Below are positions 22,302-48,129 of a stretch of DNA of 64,000 nucleotides, in pieces. Origin of the DNA: Spirochaetota bacterium (lineage in GTDB: Bacteria; Spirochaetota; Spirochaetia; Treponematales; UBA12059). Below the pieces are notes generated by a model, which saw only the letters and a program-made list of their open reading frames with translations, ran no database searches and was not told the DNA's origin. The stretch spans positions 1 to 64,000 of the forward strand of contig JAKPPT010000072.1 in the NCBI GenBank assembly GCA_029547205.1, written 5' to 3'. Positions within the stretch are counted from its first letter, which is position 1. The number at the start of each line of letters is the position of its first letter. Both the position numbers and the translations under genes were made by a program.

Positions 22302-22817
22302 ATGAGTTATTATTTGGAATATGGCAACAAAAAAGCAAAATGTATAGAGCTTAAAATAAACCCAAAGGTGCCATTTCCTAAAATTGTACAATCAATAACT
22401 CGTATTGGTATAGCAGGATGCAGCAAAGCAGAGCTAATTCATTATGCAGTATTAGAGCTTGTTTCAAATTCTGTGCGTTCTCATTTAGAAAAAAATGTTC
22501 AAGAAAACATACACGTTATTTTATCAATACAGGAAGAAAAACTCACTGTCAATGTTGAGGATAGAGGTGGCGGTTTTAACCCTGCAGTACTGCCTTATGA
22601 TATCACATTTGATCCTGATTCTATAGATGTCAATTCTGAAACATTCCAGAAATATCGAGAACATCACAACTACTCCAGATTTGGAATGGGCTTATTATCT
22701 GCAAAACGTACGTTCCCTGAACTAAAGATTCAGTTTGTAACGCAGAAAGGAGTCGTTACATCATGGTCAGAAGCTGTAATAGGTACGTATATATCCGGGG
22801 AACTATATTTGAAATAA
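22302..22817 (+). CDS. HATPase-domain protein, anti-sigma (RsbW-like) type
   Basis: The 171-residue protein is a lone GHKL ATPase domain. The N-box is LELVSNSVRSH (about 49-59), G1 is VEDRGGGF (about 85-92), and G2 is FGMGLLSAKRTFP (about 127-139). There is no His phosphoacceptor domain, which suits an RsbW/SpoIIAB-like serine kinase working with a SpoIIE phosphatase such as the one at 8973. The N-box has SNSV where NAV is usual, so activity is not certain. It follows glnS by 12 bases. Confidence 0.78.
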   Translation: MSYYLEYGNKKAKCIELKINPKVPFPKIVQSITRIGIAGCSKAELIHYAVLELVSNSVRSHLEKNVQENIHVILSIQEEKLTVNVEDRGGGFNPAVLPYDITFDPDSIDVNSETFQKYREHHNYSRFGMGLLSAKRTFPELKIQFVTQKGVVTSWSEAVIGTYISGELYLK

Positions 22818-22856
22818 AAAATGTACATATAAATTAGGTTATAAGGAGACAAACTC

Positions 22857-23201
22857 ATGGATACCAATGATAAGCGACGTTCAGAACGATTTGTTTCTTT
22901 TGCACATGTTAGAATTATCGATGCTGAGATGTATGGATACATAACTAATATCTCCTCTACTGGTATAAAAACATTACTTACAGCAAAGGTTTTTACGCTT
23001 AAGCAAGAAGCTCAGTATAATCTCGAACTATATGCACCCGAACTAAATTTACCTCGTTTTAGCTGTATTGGACTTTTAAAATGGATGAACGTCATTGATA
23101 TAAACCACTATGAAGCAGGCTTTGAAATTCTTTCATTTTCTAATGATACAGCTAAGCTCTTATTTGATAGGCTTATAGAAACATATAAACGATTTGATTA
23201 G
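22857..23201 (+). CDS. PilZ-domain protein (possible cyclic-di-GMP receptor)
   Basis: The 114-residue protein consists of one PilZ domain. The nucleotide-binding signature is present: KRRSERF near the N-terminus (RxxxR) and NISSTGIK (about 37-44; D/NxSxxG). It should therefore bind cyclic-di-GMP, which in spirochaetes often controls motility and envelope functions. AAGGAG precedes the ATG. The last four bases overlap the convergent rsmG gene. Confidence 0.85.
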   Translation: MDTNDKRRSERFVSFAHVRIIDAEMYGYITNISSTGIKTLLTAKVFTLKQEAQYNLELYAPELNLPRFSCIGLLKWMNVIDINHYEAGFEILSFSNDTAKLLFDRLIETYKRFD

Positions 23202-25786: not shown

Positions 25787-26722
25787 TTATTTTTTTGATG
25801 GCTTATAATTAAATGACTTAAATATATCATGACCCTCGAATTTTTTATCTTTAATGAATAATGCAGAATATTTTTCGGGAATACGTTTTATAAATTCCTC
25901 AGAAGCAAGTACAATACCTGGCTTTGCAATTTTTTTTATGATGTGATGAATAAAATTAATATCAGCAGAAATAATGTTACCAGTTTTTCCTACTTTTTCC
26001 CATGGCGTTGTCCCATAATGGAGCGCAATTGTCATTGGAAGTATGGTTTGAATTTTGTAGTATTCATACGATAAAGGAATTGCATTGAGAATAATTTGCA
26101 ATGCAATTCGTAAAGCAAACTCGCTATGCTCCGGAGGGAAAAGCAGTAAAGCGTATGTGCCATCAGTCATCCATAGTTTACCCGTATCCTGAATGACATA
26201 GCTTAGATAATTTAAAAATAATTCTTTGATTTTTTCGAACCGTTTTTCTCCAAAACTCTTTTTAAGCTCTTCCGAAATGCTCAATGAAATAATTAAGAAA
26301 ATAAATGGATATTCCTTCCGGGAAATTAATTTGTCCCACCCAGGAAATTCGGGAAGCTCTATATGTTCTACATTTTGTCCTGTTTTAAATGAATAGATTT
26401 GTTGAAGTCTCGATTCAGATATTTTTTTTTCGAGAACCTGACCGTTGAGGTAATCTGCTGCTCCAGAAAAAAACAAAAGAGCGGGATCGGTAATTTGATT
26501 TTTTGGATCAATAACACCCCACAATGAAGCTCTAGTCTGCAATTCTTTAAGTACGAGATTAAAATTTTCATGTGAAAAACTTAATCGATCAACATATACT
26601 ATGGTATCTGGGTCCGCCTTTAACTTTTTTATTGCTGATATGTTTTCAATTGGGAACAGCGAACAGTGAGCTGTAAAAAATGATGTAATTTTTTTATATT
26701 TGCCAAGTATTACTATTTGCAT
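25787..26722 (-). CDS. Pseudo-receiver plus degenerate class III cyclase-homology protein
   Basis: The 311-residue protein seems to have two parts. Residues 1-98 read like a receiver domain lacking the usual acidic pair: QIVILGKYK, IVYVDRLSFS and FFSGAADYLNGQ at the place of the typical GADDYL. Residues 139-305 look like a class III nucleotide cyclase domain (LWMTDGTYALLLF, then TIALHYGTTPWEKVGKTGNIISADIN). Only one metal Asp (187) is kept; the first is missing from FIFLIISLS, and the N..R pair is N256..H260. I infer a non-catalytic partner of the overlapping upstream gene (10-base overlap). Both domain calls are by pattern only. Confidence 0.55.
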   Translation of the reverse strand: MQIVILGKYKKITSFFTAHCSLFPIENISAIKKLKADPDTIVYVDRLSFSHENFNLVLKELQTRASLWGVIDPKNQITDPALLFFSGAADYLNGQVLEKKISESRLQQIYSFKTGQNVEHIELPEFPGWDKLISRKEYPFIFLIISLSISEELKKSFGEKRFEKIKELFLNYLSYVIQDTGKLWMTDGTYALLLFPPEHSEFALRIALQIILNAIPLSYEYYKIQTILPMTIALHYGTTPWEKVGKTGNIISADINFIHHIIKKIAKPGIVLASEEFIKRIPEKYSALFIKDKKFEGHDIFKSFNYKPSKK

Positions 26723-27645
26723 GAAAACTCCGTTGAAGGTTTATAATAATATAATTTCCATTTATCACACTGGATGGATGATGTAAGGCTATCCGTTAAC
26801 AATTTGTCCAGGCGAGCATATACGTTTACAGTAACGGAAAGCACGTTTTCTGGAGTATGTTTACTTTCAATTTCAAAAGCTTCGCGGATTGGATCGTACT
26901 TGCGAATTACAGAAGCATTTGAAGAAAAAGGAAACGTCCCTGCATGACACGAAATTCTCAGTGAGACTGGTTTTTGCAATATATTGTCAAAAATATTAAA
27001 CAAATTTAATTTATTGATAATATCAATACCTGTTAATACAGCGTTGTTATAAATATCGCCATTAAAGAAAGCTATGAGACCACCATCGCCTTCCCAGAAC
27101 CATTCGCGGCCATCTCGTTTTAAAAATGAGTTAGTAATAAACGCATGAATATGGCGGTAAGCAGATTCTACATCGGTTTTTTTGTTTGAGCGAACATGCT
27201 CGGAGTTTCTTACAATGTCAATTTTCAAAAACGTAAATGAATAGTTTGAGCCTTCATGCAACCTTCCCCAGTTGATTGTAGCCTGTTTTGTGGTATCTTC
27301 CATGAATCGGTTAATTTCAGGATTATAGAGAAAACCTTCTGCTGCAATATGCTTGATCATTTCGTCAAGATAGAGAATTGGAAATTCTCTGCCCATATAG
27401 CCTCTCGAGTTGAGTATAATTAGATACTCAAGCAAATCGAGAAACATATCAAGAGCGATGCAGTCATCGATTACCTGACGAGCAGTCTGCTGTGCGGTAA
27501 GGGGAATGTTGTGCGGACAGCCAGTGCGTTCATAGATATCATAATTTTCAATAACCTGAGATGCAACATGAATAATCATGCGGACATCAAGTGATTCATA
27601 CAAACTTTTTATGGCTAAAGAGCGTAAAGCATTTCTAACGCGCAT
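26713..27645 (-). CDS. Class III nucleotide cyclase-homology protein, possibly active
   Basis: The 310-residue protein has an N-terminal helical region (1-135) that I do not recognise. Its C-terminal domain reads as a class III adenylate/guanylate cyclase. Both metal-binding Asp appear present (D143 in FLKIDIVRN, D187 in WEGDGGLIAFF). SVTVNVYARLDKL has the transition-state Asn and Arg (N274, R278) at the usual spacing of four, and LRISCHAG matches the strand before it. The usual Lys before GDG is not seen, so nucleotide choice is unclear. It overlaps the degenerate cyclase-like gene by 10 bases, suggesting a heteromeric pair. Confidence 0.6.
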   Translation of the reverse strand: MRVRNALRSLAIKSLYESLDVRMIIHVASQVIENYDIYERTGCPHNIPLTAQQTARQVIDDCIALDMFLDLLEYLIILNSRGYMGREFPILYLDEMIKHIAAEGFLYNPEINRFMEDTTKQATINWGRLHEGSNYSFTFLKIDIVRNSEHVRSNKKTDVESAYRHIHAFITNSFLKRDGREWFWEGDGGLIAFFNGDIYNNAVLTGIDIINKLNLFNIFDNILQKPVSLRISCHAGTFPFSSNASVIRKYDPIREAFEIESKHTPENVLSVTVNVYARLDKLLTDSLTSSIQCDKWKLYYYKPSTEFSCK

Positions 27646-27686: not shown

Positions 27687-28361
27687 TTATACGATAGTAT
27701 AGGTTTTAGCAACATTTTCTTTTTGTGTGCGTAAGTAATCTGCAATTGCAGTATCGTACATGCTTTGTCTTTCAAAAACAGCTTCCGCCATGTTAATTCT
27801 ATCTTTTAACGTGAGCCTACCATTATTTTTTTCAAGTGCTTGCATGATTTGTGCATAATATTCGGGTGAAGGAACGGGACAGACGCGCAAAAAGTTTTTA
27901 GCAGCTGCACGAAGCAGTGTAGGTCCTCCAATATCAATATGCTGGCGTGCTGTTTCAAAACTATCAGCTTGGTCGCTTGCTTGAGTAAATGGATAGAGAT
28001 TGCAGATAACCATATCAAACTGAACAGCATCGTATCGGGCTAAATCTGCTTCATGCTCTCGATCAAACGGTTCAGCAAGCAATCCAAGGTATATTTTCCA
28101 GTCTAATGTCTTAACAAGGCCACCTTTCATTTCCGGCTGACCGGTGTATCTTGTCATATCAACGAGATGTGCGCCAGATCGCTCACCTAATAACTGCTGG
28201 ATAAAACTGTACGTTCCACCTGTAGCATAAAAACGTACTCCCGGGCAGTAGCGGAGCAGGGCTACCAGCATGTTTTCAAGTCCGCTTTTGTCATAGACAG
28301 AAACAATAACATTACGAATAGGTACAGCATCCTGTATTTTTTCTACATGGTTAAAAGCCAT
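27687..28361 (-). CDS. purH: IMP cyclohydrolase, stand-alone PurH N-terminal domain
   Basis: This domain closes FAICAR to IMP, the last step of purine synthesis. The protein has only about 224 residues. SVYDKSGL, YATGGTYSFI and IDIGGPTLLRAAAKN are clear PurH motifs. The AICAR formyltransferase half of bifunctional PurH is absent and not found downstream. The motif usually written VKTLHPKIHGG is VKTLDWKIYLG here, a variant of active-site surroundings. ATG 28361 has AAGGAG five bases upstream; the GTG two codons earlier overlaps that site. Last gene of folD-folE2-purH. Confidence 0.88.
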   Translation of the reverse strand: MAFNHVEKIQDAVPIRNVIVSVYDKSGLENMLVALLRYCPGVRFYATGGTYSFIQQLLGERSGAHLVDMTRYTGQPEMKGGLVKTLDWKIYLGLLAEPFDREHEADLARYDAVQFDMVICNLYPFTQASDQADSFETARQHIDIGGPTLLRAAAKNFLRVCPVPSPEYYAQIMQALEKNNGRLTLKDRINMAEAVFERQSMYDTAIADYLRTQKENVAKTYTIV

Positions 28362-28363
28362 TG

Positions 28364-29161
28364 TCACTCCTTGTGAGCTTGATAGTGAACCATTGCAAAA
28401 GCCGAATGGTTATGGATACTTTCAAAATTTTCCGCTTCTACTGTAAACTCTGGAAACTGTTTCAATGCTTCAAGCTTAAGGTACACTTCCCGAACTAAAT
28501 CCTCAACGAAACGAGGGTTTTCGTATGCAGTTTCCGTTACAAATTTTTCATCACTTCTTTTTAATAATGTAAACACAGCACTTGAAGCGCATGATTCAAC
28601 GAGTCCGATAATATCTTCAATCCAGAAGAACGGACCGAGGTGCAGCGATACGGTAACAATACCGCGCTGATTGTGAGCTCCGTATTTGCTAATTGCTTTC
28701 GAGCATGGACACACTGTTTGAACCGGTATAGAAATAGAAACAATAAAGTTATGTTTATTGGTATTAACCATGCCCTGAAATGCGCATTCATACCGCATTA
28801 TACTTTTTTGATGAGAAACAGGAGCTTCTTTTTCAATAAAATAGGGGAAATGAATATCAGCATAGGCAGTTTCAGCATGGAGAGCGGTACGGACTTCTTT
28901 AAGCATGGTTAGAAAATGGGGCATTGATAAGTCTTTCCGGTGTTTATTAAACACTTCTATAAAGCGGCTCATGTGAGTGCCCTTGAACTCATGCGGCAGA
29001 TCAACAAAAAGGTTTACAATCGCACTCGTATGCTGAACACCATTTGCCTTATCGAGCACCGTTATTGGGTATTCAAGCCCCTTTACACCTACTTTGTTGA
29101 TGGGAATTTTTCTAAAATCTTTTTGATTCTGAACATCAATGTGATGCAATTGTTTTCCCAC
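28364..29161 (-). CDS. folE2: GTP cyclohydrolase FolE2 (type IB)
   Basis: FolE2 converts GTP to dihydroneopterin triphosphate, the entry to folate. The 265-residue protein shows the catalytic Cys in QTVCPCSKAIS (about 147-157), KYGAHNQRG just after, and FVEDLVREV with the Glu near the end. Type IB enzymes can use metals other than zinc. It lies between folD (6 bases) and purH (2 bases), forming a folate and one-carbon/purine operon. Confidence 0.95.
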   Translation of the reverse strand: MGKQLHHIDVQNQKDFRKIPINKVGVKGLEYPITVLDKANGVQHTSAIVNLFVDLPHEFKGTHMSRFIEVFNKHRKDLSMPHFLTMLKEVRTALHAETAYADIHFPYFIEKEAPVSHQKSIMRYECAFQGMVNTNKHNFIVSISIPVQTVCPCSKAISKYGAHNQRGIVTVSLHLGPFFWIEDIIGLVESCASSAVFTLLKRSDEKFVTETAYENPRFVEDLVREVYLKLEALKQFPEFTVEAENFESIHNHSAFAMVHYQAHKE

Positions 29162-33064: not shown

Positions 33065-35749
33065 TCAAATATCCGCCAATTCAATTTTAATAACTTTATA
33101 ATTAAACTGCTTTTCATTTATTGAGAATGAAAGCATGTCATCGACTTTATGGTTTACTAATTTTTTACCAAGCGGTGAAAGGTAAGAAATAATATTATTA
33201 GCGGGATCTGATTCCCACGGACCCAATATTGTAAAAACTTCATTTTTATTTGTATTAAGATTCAGCAATGTAACTTTGGTTCCAAAAGAAATCTTTGTCG
33301 TAGAGGCACTTGCTCTATCAAAAATCTGAGCACGTTCAATCTCGTTCTTAAGTTTGGCAATTTTTGAATTCAGTTCATCTTGTTTTTCCTTAGCAGCCTT
33401 ATATTCTGCATTTTCACGAAGATCGCCCAGCGAGAGAGCAAATGCAATTTCTTTTTGATTTGCAGGCACATCTTCATTAACTAATTTATTGAGCTGCTGT
33501 GTTTTTTCATTATATTTCTTTTCTGTTACAATTAAGCCGCGAGAAACAATTGATCGTTCTTCTTCCTGGAATTTAAAGTCGGGGAAGCGTTCCTGTATTT
33601 TTTTCCGAATATTTAATTTAATTGCCGGATCGATGGTTCTTACATCGGAAATAAGCGCATACATACGTTCAACTGCTTCTTTGCTTGACTGTTCAATAAA
33701 TTTGGTAATTGCACCATCTCTGAATAAAAAGTTATCAATGGCTTTAATCAGTTTTTTATTCTCAACAGTGTTTTTATGGTTTTCGATTTCTTTATAACAG
33801 ATATCAAGTATATGAATGAGAATAATGAGAACCTTATCGTAATAACGATAGAGTGGCTCTATCCATTTTTCTGTCCAGAGCGACCGGATCATCCAGATAA
33901 ATGTTGAGCGGTAATCTCGATAATTTTCTATAACATTATTAAAGAGTCGAAGCAGCTGTTCTGTTTCACCAGCATCAAGAAGAATATCAATCATCGACTT
34001 AAGTTGAGTTGTTGGTAGTAGCTCCATGTAAATGGATACCCAGTTTGCAAGAGTCTGCTTGATGGTCTGAAGCAGCATCTGCCTGAGATTAGTGTCTTTA
34101 ATAAAATTATAGAGAGCTGTGAAATCTGTATCTTTTGTAACAAGTTCTGTAAATGACACTGTTAGATATTTTTTTAACATTGTATGATGCTGAGCAAGTT
34201 CTTTGATAAAGAGATACGCAGCAATTGAATATTCATCTGATGTCTGTCCTGTTTTGATAAATGTTGCAACAAACTCAATCATTTCTGTAAAAAGCTCAGA
34301 ATCGGTATCGCCGCCCTTATCAATAAAATTGCGAATGCATTGGAGTCGTGAAAAAAAGTTTTTCTCAGCCTTAAATTGATTGTATGTTTTTTCCTCAAAC
34401 GTAAGCGGCCTGTCACGGACCATGTAGGTATTTACTGAATCACTTGTATTGCCAATAGTAGGATCGGTCTGCAGAATATCTTTAGCTTTTTTGCTCCACG
34501 ATGTCCATTCGCTTTCGGTGAGAATTGCGGGAACAAGTTCTTTTTTAATAGTTTTGAGATCTGTATTGTTATCAAAGCTCTTTATAAGAATCTTGAGCGC
34601 CCATGAAATATCAGACTTTATTTTCTCTTTTAGAACTTCCTGTTTCATGATTGCTTTTAATACCCAGATATGATCTTTGGGTAGTACCTTGAGGTTATCA
34701 AAAGCCATTTTCAGGGTCATTTCGTGATTGCGTTTTTTAGCAAAATCAATATAAATATTTTCACCTTCTATTGAACGGATACGTCCGATACTCCAGTTTC
34801 TATGATATACAAAGTTTCCTACATCAAACTGAATGTGTTTTTCGAAATCGCTTATTGCTTCAAAAATAGCGCGGTATGTTTGAGAAATATTGGATATGCG
34901 CAGGCATTCTTCAAGCCGTGAATGGTTTGCATACTTTGCTCTATAGCATTCTACAATTTCTTTTCTCATAACAGGATTTCGGTCTTCATATTCAAGTATT
35001 TGTTTAAGAATAAGTATGGATGTATCCCAGTCTTTTTTAGTTTTATATACTTTATACAAATCCTCGAGGAGCTGCGCTGCTTTTTCACCGCTGATATTTT
35101 TTGCAATTTTCTTTTGTACATACAGGAAAAAGTAAACATCAGAAGGCGTTAGGGTTATAAGTTTTTCCCACATTTCTTTTATCATTGCAAATTGTCCCTT
35201 TGCAATGAAGCGGTGCAAAGCTTTGCGGTAATAGTCAATTGCAGTTTCAAGATCATTTTTTTGTTCATAGTATTCTGCAATTGTTTTAACAAGTTCGGTT
35301 TCTTCTGTGTCGATGCGGATTAATCGTTCCCAGATAGCAAATTTTTCTTCATTTTTGTTTTCATTCTCATAGCACTCTGCCAATCTGATAAGTGCATTAC
35401 GATTTTCTACATAATCAAGTACCCTGAGACAGATATATTCAACGATGTTCCATTTATGGTTTTCTGTAAAAATATTGAGCAGTTCCACTATTGGAGAGTC
35501 GTCAAGTGTCTGACGGGTTAGGTTTATAATACCGGTTAGATATAATGCAATAATGCTGTTCTTTGAATGTGCCAGATGTTCTGAGCAGATTTGATATATT
35601 TCATCTACCAGTTTCTCTTTTGCAGCTTCATGATAAATATTATCTAATTCTTTTATTTGATTGACAGTGTACGCAGAAATTGCTGCACGTGTCCATTTTT
35701 CTTCATTGAGCATTTCCTGTGTTCGTTTGAGTATTCCAGATTCAGCCAT
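33065..35749 (-). CDS. greA: GreA-type transcript cleavage factor with long N-terminal extension
   Basis: The last 150 residues of this 894-residue protein are a complete GreA. A coiled coil contains GDLRENAEYKAAKEKQ, whose Asp and Glu are the acids that enter the polymerase secondary channel, and an FKBP-like C-terminal domain follows (FGTKVTLLNLNTNKNEV, SPLGKKLVNHKVDD). The first 740 residues are helical with TPR-like segments (60-200) and a small beta insert near 300-350 (FVYHRNWSIGRIRSIEGENI). Long GreA proteins of this type are known from treponemes, so the fusion is a lineage trait. It probably rescues stalled polymerase; the extension's role is unknown. Confidence 0.88.
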   Translation of the reverse strand: MAESGILKRTQEMLNEEKWTRAAISAYTVNQIKELDNIYHEAAKEKLVDEIYQICSEHLAHSKNSIIALYLTGIINLTRQTLDDSPIVELLNIFTENHKWNIVEYICLRVLDYVENRNALIRLAECYENENKNEEKFAIWERLIRIDTEETELVKTIAEYYEQKNDLETAIDYYRKALHRFIAKGQFAMIKEMWEKLITLTPSDVYFFLYVQKKIAKNISGEKAAQLLEDLYKVYKTKKDWDTSILILKQILEYEDRNPVMRKEIVECYRAKYANHSRLEECLRISNISQTYRAIFEAISDFEKHIQFDVGNFVYHRNWSIGRIRSIEGENIYIDFAKKRNHEMTLKMAFDNLKVLPKDHIWVLKAIMKQEVLKEKIKSDISWALKILIKSFDNNTDLKTIKKELVPAILTESEWTSWSKKAKDILQTDPTIGNTSDSVNTYMVRDRPLTFEEKTYNQFKAEKNFFSRLQCIRNFIDKGGDTDSELFTEMIEFVATFIKTGQTSDEYSIAAYLFIKELAQHHTMLKKYLTVSFTELVTKDTDFTALYNFIKDTNLRQMLLQTIKQTLANWVSIYMELLPTTQLKSMIDILLDAGETEQLLRLFNNVIENYRDYRSTFIWMIRSLWTEKWIEPLYRYYDKVLIILIHILDICYKEIENHKNTVENKKLIKAIDNFLFRDGAITKFIEQSSKEAVERMYALISDVRTIDPAIKLNIRKKIQERFPDFKFQEEERSIVSRGLIVTEKKYNEKTQQLNKLVNEDVPANQKEIAFALSLGDLRENAEYKAAKEKQDELNSKIAKLKNEIERAQIFDRASASTTKISFGTKVTLLNLNTNKNEVFTILGPWESDPANNIISYLSPLGKKLVNHKVDDMLSFSINEKQFNYKVIKIELADI

Positions 35750-36807: not shown

Positions 36808-39800
36808 CTAAAAAACAGCTTTAAGTGATAAACCGAGTGAGTATCCAATAGAAAACATGAAGCGTTCTGTTTGCCATTTCAGTGTTTCTTCGAGTTTGAT
36901 AAACAACGTAACGCGTAGGAACGTGTCCAGAAAACTCTCTGCACTATAGGATTCTTCCAGAATCAATGTACTCTGAGCTGGGAGCGTTGAATAGGAAGCT
37001 CCAATTTTCCATGAGTCTTCTGCCTGTATACCCGCGCGCGAAAGCTTTATGAGCCAAGTTGAAACAAAAGCTTTTTCTTGAGCTGTTTCGGTATATGGAT
37101 CTGGCAATTGTTTTCGGATAAGTTCGGTAATCCATGATACACTGTTTGCATGAACAGGGAACCTGTTTTCGCCTGTAACAGAACAGGAAAATCCCCTGCC
37201 ATACTCAGCTTCTGTATATTCGCAGGTAATTGCAGTATTAAACTTGCTGTTTCCGGTAAAATAAGCCTGCAAGTTGCCTTGTATGGTAAAGTAAATAGCA
37301 GAATTTGTTTGTGGAAAACCAAATATGGTCGTAGAGAGTTTCCACTGGTATTCATCAAAGGTATACGCTGTAAAGTATGGAATGTATCCGTACTGTGAAA
37401 AGATGTTGCCAGCTTTTGCTCCAATAATTCCTGATATACCAAGCTTTTGTACAGGTACAGATCCATGCTGCTGATACTCGCTAAAGCTTTCAATTTTAAT
37501 GAGGGCTGGAATAACGAGATCCCACAAACCATAACCGAGCGAACGCTGAAAACTAAGTCCATATCGTTCATTGAATTGAGCTTGAGGATACTCTGCAAGC
37601 GCTATAATAATGGATTGTGCATAGGTGTTGGTAAAAAATGGTTCCCACATGCATTGAGCAGCAGCTACTGTGAGAAATGTTGCAAGCCAGGTATCGATAG
37701 CTGATGCAAAAGAATCATCACTACCTGTTGTACGTATTGAATAGCTCTTGTTGATAGAGGGTGTTATGGAACCAGCTGGAAATGTGAACTGTGGCGCAAG
37801 TTCAATTTGAAAATCCGAACCAGCTTTTTCTGTTTTATAAATTGAATACAGGCTTCGTGCCTGGAGCGTTAAACCAATAGTCTTTTGTACCATAGTTATT
37901 TTTAGGTTTCTATAAAAGACTTCTGGATCAGTGAATGTAACAAGTGTTGCCCAGGAATCGGTGTAAGCAGAAAAAAAATCAAACTGGGATAACGAATGCA
38001 CCCATTGCTGTTTTAACTCTGAGTTAATGGCAATGAACTCAGGCCTGCCTGTAGCAAGCTTCCATGTTTGCGTTATAGTACCTGAGCTAAATATGCTTGA
38101 TGCACTCACGGTCACAGGGAATGGTGTCGAGAGAGTACCGCTGATTCCCTGACTGAACCTATCTGGTTCCCGGGCAAAAGAAAATTGATTCTGAAAGGAA
38201 AATGGAAATAAATCGGGTTCGAGACGAATAGAACTGTGAAATGCAGGAATTACCCGTGCATCAGTATAAAATAGAATACTTCCCAGTGTTGTTTCGAAAA
38301 AACCAAGCTTCCAGAAAGCCTGTACTTCACCGCGCGCGGTAAGCGGGTTTACTGTCGTATCATGCCAGTAGAGTTGTTCGTGCAGTGAAATCGATGCATA
38401 ACGCTGCATCCAGGTCAAACTGCCCTCCTGTGCCATTCTAAAATTGGGAAGTGGATTATAGAGCACTGGTTCACTGAGTATAAAGCTGGATGGTTCGTCA
38501 TTTAAGTATAATTTTAGTGTATTAAAAGCTACAGAGCTTTCTTCAGGAATTTTGCCAGTGATGCTTGAAATAGATAGTGGTGAATTGTGTGTGTCATAGC
38601 ACAGGACCATGCCAGTTTTAATGTTTATTGAAATATGTATCCATTCATTTGCTGGTAAATTACCAATAGGAATACTTTCAATGCGGAGACTGTTTGTGCC
38701 AGTTCCTAGTTCAAGAGTGAGTTCTGCAGCTGGATCTGAACTTGTATTTTGAATATAGAACCCGATGGTTTCATAATTTTCCAGCCGTATGTTGGTGTCA
38801 CAAACCAAATAAACCGATGTTCCAGCTGCTGTTTTATCGTAGCTCAGTACTAAGAGCTTTGGTTCGATGTTTGTTTCAGGGAGCAGAAACGTGTCAGTTG
38901 TTGTTGCTGTAGAAACAGTTACTGGAGTACCCCCAATGTGCATGAAAGATGTAGGTTTCCACCTCTCGCTCACAGGAAGAGTAACAGGACTACTCTGCGA
39001 AAATTGAGCTGAGTATGCAGCGTTAACAAGTAATGCACGATCAGTATCATACGATCGGTCATAGCTCCACAGTAAACCTCCATATAATTTTTCGATGCTT
39101 ATGAGTGAAAAATCCTCTGGTACAGCAAAAATACCAGAAAGTATAGTATCGAGCGTAGAAAATTCAGAAAGATTAGCCATATATCCTGCAGCAGCTACAA
39201 GCTGACCGTTGTTTCGATTAGTTGAATACTTTTTGCAAGTAATAATTAATTTATCGGTGGGTAAGGGTGGTGGAGATACGGTAAGCGTATGGGTAGTGCT
39301 GTCATAGCTAAAACTCGTTGTTTCAAGACCATTGCGATAGACAGTGATTGAACCAGGAATTACCGCTTCCGATAAAACAATACTTTCACGCGCTTCAAGA
39401 ACGTTTGTAATGATAACAAATGATGATGCAGAATTTGTTTGTGTGGCATCATAAATCCATGGATTGTCTGCATAAAATGGACGTGAAAAATCATCGGTAT
39501 GGGGATCCTCTGCATTGTTCCGCACTACCATAATGGTATTGGCGCTTACCGTGCGGGTTGTAAAATTTGAATCAACGGTATTGCTATCTTTATTGATTAC
39601 CGAACATGCCTGAGCGCTCGTATCTGCTGGAATGCTGTATACATTTTTGAGTTCCAGGGGATTCGTATCATCGGGAAGAAAGAGTATAAGCTCATAAACT
39701 GCTGCATTTTCTCGTATTACAGCACGAAGTTCTTTTGTCACAGGATTTTTGAGGATTAGTATGCCTGTTTGCTGGTAATAGTCGTATGTGTCAGGGAATA

Positions 39801-40467
39801 CAAGGGAAGACTGTCCCCTGTCTATTGTATAGAGTGAGACAATTTGTGCCTGGGCTGGTAGTACAAAAGCCTTGCCCCGAAGCCACTGTGCTGGATTTAT
39901 CGAGAGCTTTGTTTCTTCACTGTAGCCATAGTACGTATAAGTTTCATATTGCACCGTATCCCATCGGAGCATGGCCTCTGCATGGTTCAGGGTTTGTGTG
40001 TTGATGACGTCTGCTTTGATGCCAAATGATGATGCCGGGTTCCCTAATCCGGGAAAGCTCTCATTTTTTATTGATATGTTTGAATTACCAACTCGTATTG
40101 ATAGGAGTACATCGTCCAGCTGTTTGTAATACCCTGCGCTGAATTTATTGTTATCCGGATCATTCCCTATTTGAGCTTCAAACCACAGTGATTCTGCCAG
40201 TGCAAGGAACAGGTACACATCTGGTACCTGTTTAAAAAGCAGCGGAACACCGCTATATACGAATGGAATAATCTGCACAATACCAGAGTGAACAAGTTCT
40301 GCCTGCCAGCTTCCACGTATAAACAGTGAAACTTCAACATCGTTGATACTGGTTGTGAGGAGTGTTTCTGGCGCTTCTTCTCCTCTTTGCAATGGTTTTG
40401 GGATTTGCTGAGAAAAACAGAGTGTTGATACGATGAACAGCACCGCAGTAGCAATAACTCGTTTCAA
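36808..40467 (-). CDS. Very large secreted, outer-membrane-like beta protein
   Basis: I do not recognise this 1219-residue protein. It has a signal peptide (1-19, cleavage near CFS-QQ), no other membrane helices, and repeated beta-strand patterns rich in Thr, Ser, Tyr and Phe. Residues about 560-640 (IGFYIQNTSSDPAAELTLEL, then WIHISINIKTGM) resemble a carbohydrate-binding-type jelly roll. From about 690 onward strands alternate in the manner of a large barrel, and the protein ends in Phe, as outer membrane proteins usually do. The start is TTG, 12 bases after AAGGGAGG. It is the first gene of a same-strand run of four. Confidence 0.7.
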   Translation of the reverse strand: MKRVIATAVLFIVSTLCFSQQIPKPLQRGEEAPETLLTTSINDVEVSLFIRGSWQAELVHSGIVQIIPFVYSGVPLLFKQVPDVYLFLALAESLWFEAQIGNDPDNNKFSAGYYKQLDDVLLSIRVGNSNISIKNESFPGLGNPASSFGIKADVINTQTLNHAEAMLRWDTVQYETYTYYGYSEETKLSINPAQWLRGKAFVLPAQAQIVSLYTIDRGQSSLVFPDTYDYYQQTGILILKNPVTKELRAVIRENAAVYELILFLPDDTNPLELKNVYSIPADTSAQACSVINKDSNTVDSNFTTRTVSANTIMVVRNNAEDPHTDDFSRPFYADNPWIYDATQTNSASSFVIITNVLEARESIVLSEAVIPGSITVYRNGLETTSFSYDSTTHTLTVSPPPLPTDKLIITCKKYSTNRNNGQLVAAAGYMANLSEFSTLDTILSGIFAVPEDFSLISIEKLYGGLLWSYDRSYDTDRALLVNAAYSAQFSQSSPVTLPVSERWKPTSFMHIGGTPVTVSTATTTDTFLLPETNIEPKLLVLSYDKTAAGTSVYLVCDTNIRLENYETIGFYIQNTSSDPAAELTLELGTGTNSLRIESIPIGNLPANEWIHISINIKTGMVLCYDTHNSPLSISSITGKIPEESSVAFNTLKLYLNDEPSSFILSEPVLYNPLPNFRMAQEGSLTWMQRYASISLHEQLYWHDTTVNPLTARGEVQAFWKLGFFETTLGSILFYTDARVIPAFHSSIRLEPDLFPFSFQNQFSFAREPDRFSQGISGTLSTPFPVTVSASSIFSSGTITQTWKLATGRPEFIAINSELKQQWVHSLSQFDFFSAYTDSWATLVTFTDPEVFYRNLKITMVQKTIGLTLQARSLYSIYKTEKAGSDFQIELAPQFTFPAGSITPSINKSYSIRTTGSDDSFASAIDTWLATFLTVAAAQCMWEPFFTNTYAQSIIIALAEYPQAQFNERYGLSFQRSLGYGLWDLVIPALIKIESFSEYQQHGSVPVQKLGISGIIGAKAGNIFSQYGYIPYFTAYTFDEYQWKLSTTIFGFPQTNSAIYFTIQGNLQAYFTGNSKFNTAITCEYTEAEYGRGFSCSVTGENRFPVHANSVSWITELIRKQLPDPYTETAQEKAFVSTWLIKLSRAGIQAEDSWKIGASYSTLPAQSTLILEESYSAESFLDTFLRVTLFIKLEETLKWQTERFMFSIGYSLGLSLKAVF

Positions 40468-47691: not shown

Positions 47692-48129
47692 TTATGCTCT
47701 AAGGCCGGTTAGCGCATCGTTGGTTTCTCTGAATTTCCTTACAACAACAGGAAGAATTCCTAGTGCAACTTCAGGATGTGTCTTCATAAATGAGTTAAAC
47801 TCCCAGGAAGCTAGTACCAGGCATTCCGTTTCTTCGATAGCGGTTACTGTTGCTGTTCGTGGTGCTCCATCAAGTACCGCAAACTCACCAAGTATGTCAC
47901 CTGCAGTGTTTTCTGCTATTTCTACAACACGATTGTCTGGAGTTGTTTTTGTTACTTTAACCTTACCCTTAGTAATAATAAAAATACCTATTCCTTCTTC
48001 TCCCTGTTTGATAAGTATATCACCCGGTTTGTAAACACGTTCGGTACATAACTGCGCAATACTCGCAATGTACTTTTTGTCAAGTTCTTTAAAAAGACTC
48101 ACATTAGCAATTAACTGCTCTTTATTCAT
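47692..48129 (-). CDS. Stand-alone cyclic-nucleotide-binding domain protein
   Basis: The 145-residue protein is a CRP-type cyclic nucleotide-binding domain without a DNA-binding domain. The phosphate-binding cassette reads GDILGEFAVLDGAPRTATV, with the Glu and Arg that hold the ribose and cyclic phosphate. It should therefore bind cAMP or cGMP and act through protein contact. AAGGAG precedes the ATG. A possible source of ligand is the cyclase-homology pair at 25787-27645, but this is inference. It has its own promoter and terminator. Confidence 0.9.
   Translation of the reverse strand: MNKEQLIANVSLFKELDKKYIASIAQLCTERVYKPGDILIKQGEEGIGIFIITKGKVKVTKTTPDNRVVEIAENTAGDILGEFAVLDGAPRTATVTAIEETECLVLASWEFNSFMKTHPEVALGILPVVVRKFRETNDALTGLRA

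Follow-up and report, generated by a model that had tools for sequence, protein, structure and literature searches.

Two overlapping genes in a spirochaete genome raise the question of whether bacteria possess a class III nucleotide cyclase whose active site is divided between two separately encoded proteins. The genes, here termed A and B, lie on the minus strand of the window, i.e. the whole stretch of 64,000 nucleotides that was analysed (Spirochaetota bacterium, assembly GCA_029547205.1, contig JAKPPT010000072.1). In the original prediction, which was made from the letters of the sequence, they were described as adjacent genes overlapping by 10 bases, each encoding a C-terminal domain similar to class III cyclases; one protein was held to be apparently catalytic, the other to be degenerate and to start with a receiver-like domain without phosphorylation pocket.

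Layout and predicted folds of the gene pair

The two reading frames and their overlap are found exactly as described (Table 1), and a Shine-Dalgarno-like GGAG motif is present just 5' of the ATG of B, within the end of A. Both genes are kept in 26 of 59 related genomes, which rules out chance open reading frames. In 25 of these 26 relatives the start codon of B overlaps the stop codon of A, typically as ATGA, and stop/start overlaps of this type are the usual layout of translational coupling. A promoter scan yielded sites that were no more numerous than in shuffled sequences.

Table 1. Features of the A/B gene pair, with positions in the window
Feature	Position	Strand	Basis or conservation
Gene A	26713..27645	-	310 aa ORF; metal-Asp half; kept in 26/59 relatives and 60/393 Spirochaetota genomes
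Gene B	25787..26722	-	311 aa ORF; Asn/His half with pseudo-receiver; genomes identical to those of A
10-base overlap between 3' end of A and 5' end of B	26713..26722	-	Sequence; overlap in 25/26 relatives, mostly ATGA
A, N-terminal helical domain, residues 1-125	27271..27645	-	Model; restricted to proteins of the A type (also S and a)
A, class III cyclase-homology domain, residues 130-305	26731..27258	-	Profile match to 3MR7 and Ma1120; Z 21.8 to 4WP8
A, D143, first metal Asp	27217..27219	-	79/79 and 74/74
A, D187, second metal Asp, in signature W.WxGDG	27085..27087	-	79/79 and 74/74
A, R230, beta-4 Arg (eukaryotic triphosphate position)	26956..26958	-	No exceptions among A, a and S proteins; not so in B and b
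A, R254..E258, actual Asn/Arg columns without either residue	26872..26886	-	Alignment with canonical cyclases
B, pseudo-receiver domain, residues 1-115	26378..26722	-	8SVZ profile match, E=8e-4; residues compared with CheY
B, class III cyclase-homology domain, residues 130-305	25808..26335	-	Z 19.1 to 4WPA; Foldseek
B, N256, ribose Asn position	25955..25957	-	74/74
B, H260 at transition-state Arg position	25943..25945	-	73/74
B, E296, probable beta7-beta8 Lys position	25835..25837	-	69/74; gap adjoins in alignment, less certain

The A and B proteins of the window have no significant match in Pfam and none in NCBIfam or PADLOC, which makes the recognition of a cyclase fold from raw letters a good call. 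Against solved structures, the A profile matches 3MR7 (E=2e-6), Ma1120 (7e-6) and the cUMP synthase 7R65 (2e-4); the B profile matches the receiver 8SVZ (E = 8e-4) at the N-terminus and, weakly, cyclases at the C-terminus. AlphaFold models were obtained with a mean pLDDT of 95.0 for A (73 sequences) and 92.9 for B (72 sequences), and Foldseek searches with models of either protein retrieved class III cyclases. Superposition on Ma1120 resulted in a Z score of 21.8 and an rmsd of 1.7 over 159 residues for A (4WP8) and in a Z score of 19.1 and an rmsd of 2.2 over 153 residues for B (4WPA), and comparison with the mammalian adenylyl cyclase complex 1CJK (chain A) gave Z scores of 20.2 and 18.2, respectively. 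Profile comparison, weak in the case of B, and predicted structure therefore agree in assigning both C-terminal domains to the class III cyclase fold. PleD and DgcR also appear in the Foldseek list for B, probably due to the common receiver-plus-palm layout; their superposition is poor (TM ~0.3, rmsd ~16), and a GGDEF assignment was rejected.

The helical N-terminal domain of A was seen in A proteins only among the relatives, and a profile search for a known structure returned nothing beyond a non-significant match. The N-terminal part of B resembles CheY-like response-regulator receivers in keeping the GAxDY motif and, in about 93% of sequences, an Asp where receivers accept the phosphate (D45). 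It differs from them in that the acidic pair is lost, Thr/Ser is replaced by an invariant Asp (D72) and the Lys is usually missing. The proposed receiver likeness and the loss of most of the pocket are thereby upheld, with the correction that the acceptor Asp is still in place. Judging from these residues, B is unlikely to be phosphorylated in the manner of an ordinary receiver, and it is possible that a ligand or protein input enters via this domain.

Distribution of the pair among spirochaetes

Separate searches of 59 related genomes recovered A and B from an identical set of 26. Among 393 Spirochaetota genomes, strong A matches are present in 60 and strong B matches in exactly those 60 without exception, so that neither homologue occurs widely without the other; where genomes contain two copies, the copy numbers of A and B are equal. 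The best 80 loci found with the A profile in 84,980 species genomes are all spirochaete-titled, except for one labelled only 'bacterium'. B comes immediately after A in 78 of these 80 loci, and in most of the 80 the two genes overlap or abut. One of the two exceptions (L130) is truncated at the edge of its contig; the other (L089) has A without an adjacent B. The genome of the latter (CP070841.1, apparently G061) contains a second, unlinked B about 64 kb away from the lone A, and it is because of this extra copy that the numbers of A and B are still equal. The pair was also noted in two metagenome bins (L062 and L082, SulCav isolates) carrying the names 'Treponema denticola' and 'Borreliella garinii', which are probably wrong. 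Pairwise distances of A and B are correlated with r = 0.87, a value to which shared species history contributes.

A search for further conserved neighbours within about 6-7 kb revealed no other gene family in more than 9 of approximately 76 loci, and the conserved unit therefore consists of A and B alone. Deducing a function from folD, folE2 and the purH-like and dtd-like genes that accompany the pair in the window was rejected, as these are not conserved beside the relatives. The purH-like gene (27687-28367, minus strand), located directly upstream of A and following folD and folE2, is short. Its product comprises an MGS domain and, out of the 311 positions in the AICARFT/IMPCHase model, just the first 66, and is apparently a stand-alone IMP cyclohydrolase.

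Active-site residues divided between A and B

In class III cyclase dimers, one monomer contributes two metal-binding Asp residues and an Arg on beta-4, and the other contributes an Asn and an Arg on helix alpha-4 and a Lys in the beta7-beta8 loop (PMC2576301). We inspected these positions in an alignment of 74 A, 74 B, 19 S, 21 a and 21 b proteins (the last three groups are introduced below) and 12 canonical cyclases from related genomes. The canonical enzymes have D,D,N,R in 12/12 cases. A proteins have D,D,R in 74/74, with mostly K/R and E/D/Q in the Asn and Arg columns; B proteins have N, H and, probably at the Lys position, E with the frequencies given in Table 1 and lack the Asp pair, S146 and T189 being found in its place in the window protein. 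The position of the base-choice Lys/Glu is occupied by Met or Ile in 71 of the 74 B proteins, and the canonical base-choice pair, Lys/Asp(Thr) or Glu/Cys, is absent. A Trp beside the base-recognition position is invariant in all five groups (A, B, S, a and b), where canonical relatives have Asp.

Invariance across A sequences bears out the earlier assignment of D143 and D187 as metal ligands, and the alignment likewise places N256..H260 of B in the canonical columns and confirms that its first Asp is lost. N274..R278 of A, which had been taken for the catalytic Asn/Arg pair, turned out to be a chance match: the real columns, R254 and E258, are situated about 20 residues upstream, N274 is present in 19 of 79 sequences and R278 is rare. 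The division into one apparently catalytic and one degenerate protein had to be abandoned, because A, with the metal half only, is as incomplete as B. Strict reciprocal retention of the residues is observed in 73 of 74 A/B pairs, which is beyond chance. Read from the aligned columns, A and B are reciprocally incomplete halves, together predicted to build one complete and one dead site.

From the strict reciprocity, the coupling of the genes and their co-occurrence we infer that A and B probably form an obligate heterodimeric enzyme of the class III nucleotide cyclase type with one composite active site. A would provide D143 and D187 for metal binding and R230 from beta-4, and B would provide N256 for the ribose, H260 in place of the transition-state Arg and probably E296 in place of the Lys. 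The mirror-image second site would be dead because B is devoid of the Asp pair and A of Asn/His, and either subunit alone would be inactive. Translational coupling would ensure an even A:B ratio, and the pseudo-receiver of B as well as the helical N-terminal domain private to A are candidate sites for input. The idea of a heteromeric cyclase, already put forward in the original prediction, gains strength from the folds, the strict co-occurrence and the divided residues; the part that did not stand is A as an intact partner.

With Arg replaced by His and Lys probably by Glu, two of the charges normally involved in cyclising an NTP are absent, which could point to another substrate or to no catalysis at all. 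With the base-choice residues gone, His instead of Arg, apparently Glu instead of Lys and an invariant Trp, the substrate is not readable from sequence, and the product may be one other than cAMP or cGMP. The same replacements and the loss of the base-choice residues would also suit a heterodimer without catalysis, whose composite site binds a metal-nucleotide ligand such that the pair serves as a nucleotide-sensing regulator. We regard this as unlikely, since the metal Asp pair, the beta-4 Arg and the Asn are invariant despite a mean identity among sequences of 41% in A and 33% in B, and since S proteins conserve the same full residue set within single polypeptides. Invariance of the metal Asp residues and the Asn rather suggests that the composite site of an A/B heterodimer still does chemistry.

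The genome of the window encodes 11 canonical cyclase domains (PF00211) and 13 cyclic-nucleotide-binding domains, and the pair would therefore work amid ordinary cyclic-nucleotide signalling. This wealth of potential partners could be taken to mean that A and B each dimerise with, and tune, further class III cyclases present in that cell, a reading that we consider highly improbable in view of the strict co-occurrence, the coupled genes and the complementary halves, and given that canonical cyclases are also present in genomes without the pair. Least credible is the original reading of A as an active homodimeric cyclase with B as its inhibitor or regulator: A does possess both metal Asp residues, but Asn and Arg/His are absent from it save in a few sequences, and N274/R278 are not homologous to the catalytic pair.

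Relatives, possible origin and known counterparts

The A/B pair is not without relatives. A single-gene family, S, is present at 19 loci (L141-L157, L159 and L160) and combines the A-type N-terminal domain with a cyclase domain that retains every residue of D,D,R,N,H,E in 16 of 19 proteins, L156 being the one S protein having Arg. PF00211 is matched by 17 of 18 tested S proteins, the N..H pair of S aligns onto N..R of 3MR7, and the S profile matches the PycC structure 7R65 with 7e-7. In profile comparisons S lies nearest of all groups both to the canonical cyclases and to the remaining groups, which fits a form near the ancestor. One longer S variant of 561 aa (L160) matches the N-terminal domain only in part, and L158, at first counted as S, is of the a type according to the tree and to the b-type gene downstream.

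Gene pairs also make up a further, diverged family, a/b (L161-L179, chiefly from genome family f50), which displays a division parallel to that of A/B: a keeps D,D,R, and b keeps N,H and is devoid of the first Asp. A tested b protein has a recognisable N-terminal receiver domain (NtrX model, 4.5e-11), and in certain b proteins this domain is more complete than in B. Phylogenetically, A clusters with a (support 93) and all B proteins form a single clade (100); b appears in two places, which are unsupported. A single origin of the pair is likely. In the simplest scenario, a single-gene homodimeric cyclase of the S type would have been duplicated, whereupon the copies would have lost residues in a complementary manner and one of them would have been joined to a receiver; S is a plausible homodimeric ancestor of A/B in this respect. 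A more far-reaching proposal, to which we attach distinctly less confidence, is that S, A/B and a/b make up a distinct class III branch whose active site has been rebuilt through the invariant Trp beside the base position, Met/Ile for Lys in B, His for Arg and Glu for Lys, whose product is neither cAMP nor cGMP, and in which a two-gene, C1/C2-like enzyme emerged from a homodimer that survives in the phylum.

A single site shared by two class III domains is characteristic of the C1/C2 domains of mammalian membrane adenylyl cyclase and of heterodimeric soluble guanylate cyclase. In A and B, as in C1/C2, the Asp pair resides on one domain and the residues of the Asn/Arg columns on the other, and the second site is predicted to be dead. 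A and B differ from C1/C2 in that they are bacterial, soluble and encoded by separate overlapping genes, in the pseudo-receiver on one half, in His instead of Arg and in the lack of the Lys/Asp base-choice pair. Among bacteria, the homodimeric class III cyclases (Rv1625c/Cya, CyaC, Ma1120 and 3MR7) share fold and sequence relationship with A and B but have the complete residue set on a single chain and build two sites, whereas A and B contain half of the set each. PycC of Pycsar (7R65, 8JSF and 8JSZ) likewise has a class III fold, one with non-purine base recognition, and 7R65 matches A and S; here, the differences are two chains, His for Arg and no adjacent effector in A/B. A role in Pycsar or phage defence was dismissed, as there is neither a conserved effector neighbour nor a PADLOC match and none was found in phage records.

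In the open-access literature searched, neither the A/B pair nor any bacterial class III cyclase naturally encoded by two genes is described. A bacterial homodimer that underwent duplication and fusion is regarded as the source of the adenylyl cyclases of animals (PMC9552081). Bacteria appear to have evolved a two-part cyclase of their own in parallel to animals, and division of the active site apparently arose in bacteria without fusion. The undivided form persists in the same phylum and sometimes in the same genome, which renders the transition open to direct study. Should the rebuilt pocket take another substrate, an undescribed spirochaete second messenger would be at hand, and it would be situated in cells rich in cyclases and cyclic-nucleotide receptors.

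Some further genes of the window deserve mention. A stand-alone cyclic-nucleotide-binding protein of 145 aa (PF00027, 3.3e-23) is encoded at 47692-48129 on the minus strand, about 20 kb from the pair, and is a possible receptor. Also on the minus strand, 36808-40467 is an open reading frame for 1219 aa without a Pfam match at E 0.001, and 33065-35749 encodes a GreA/GreB protein of 894 aa with a long N-terminal extension containing TPR. On the plus strand, a histidine-kinase-like gene for the ATPase only (22302-23201) adjoins a PilZ-like gene that falls below the Pfam cut-off.
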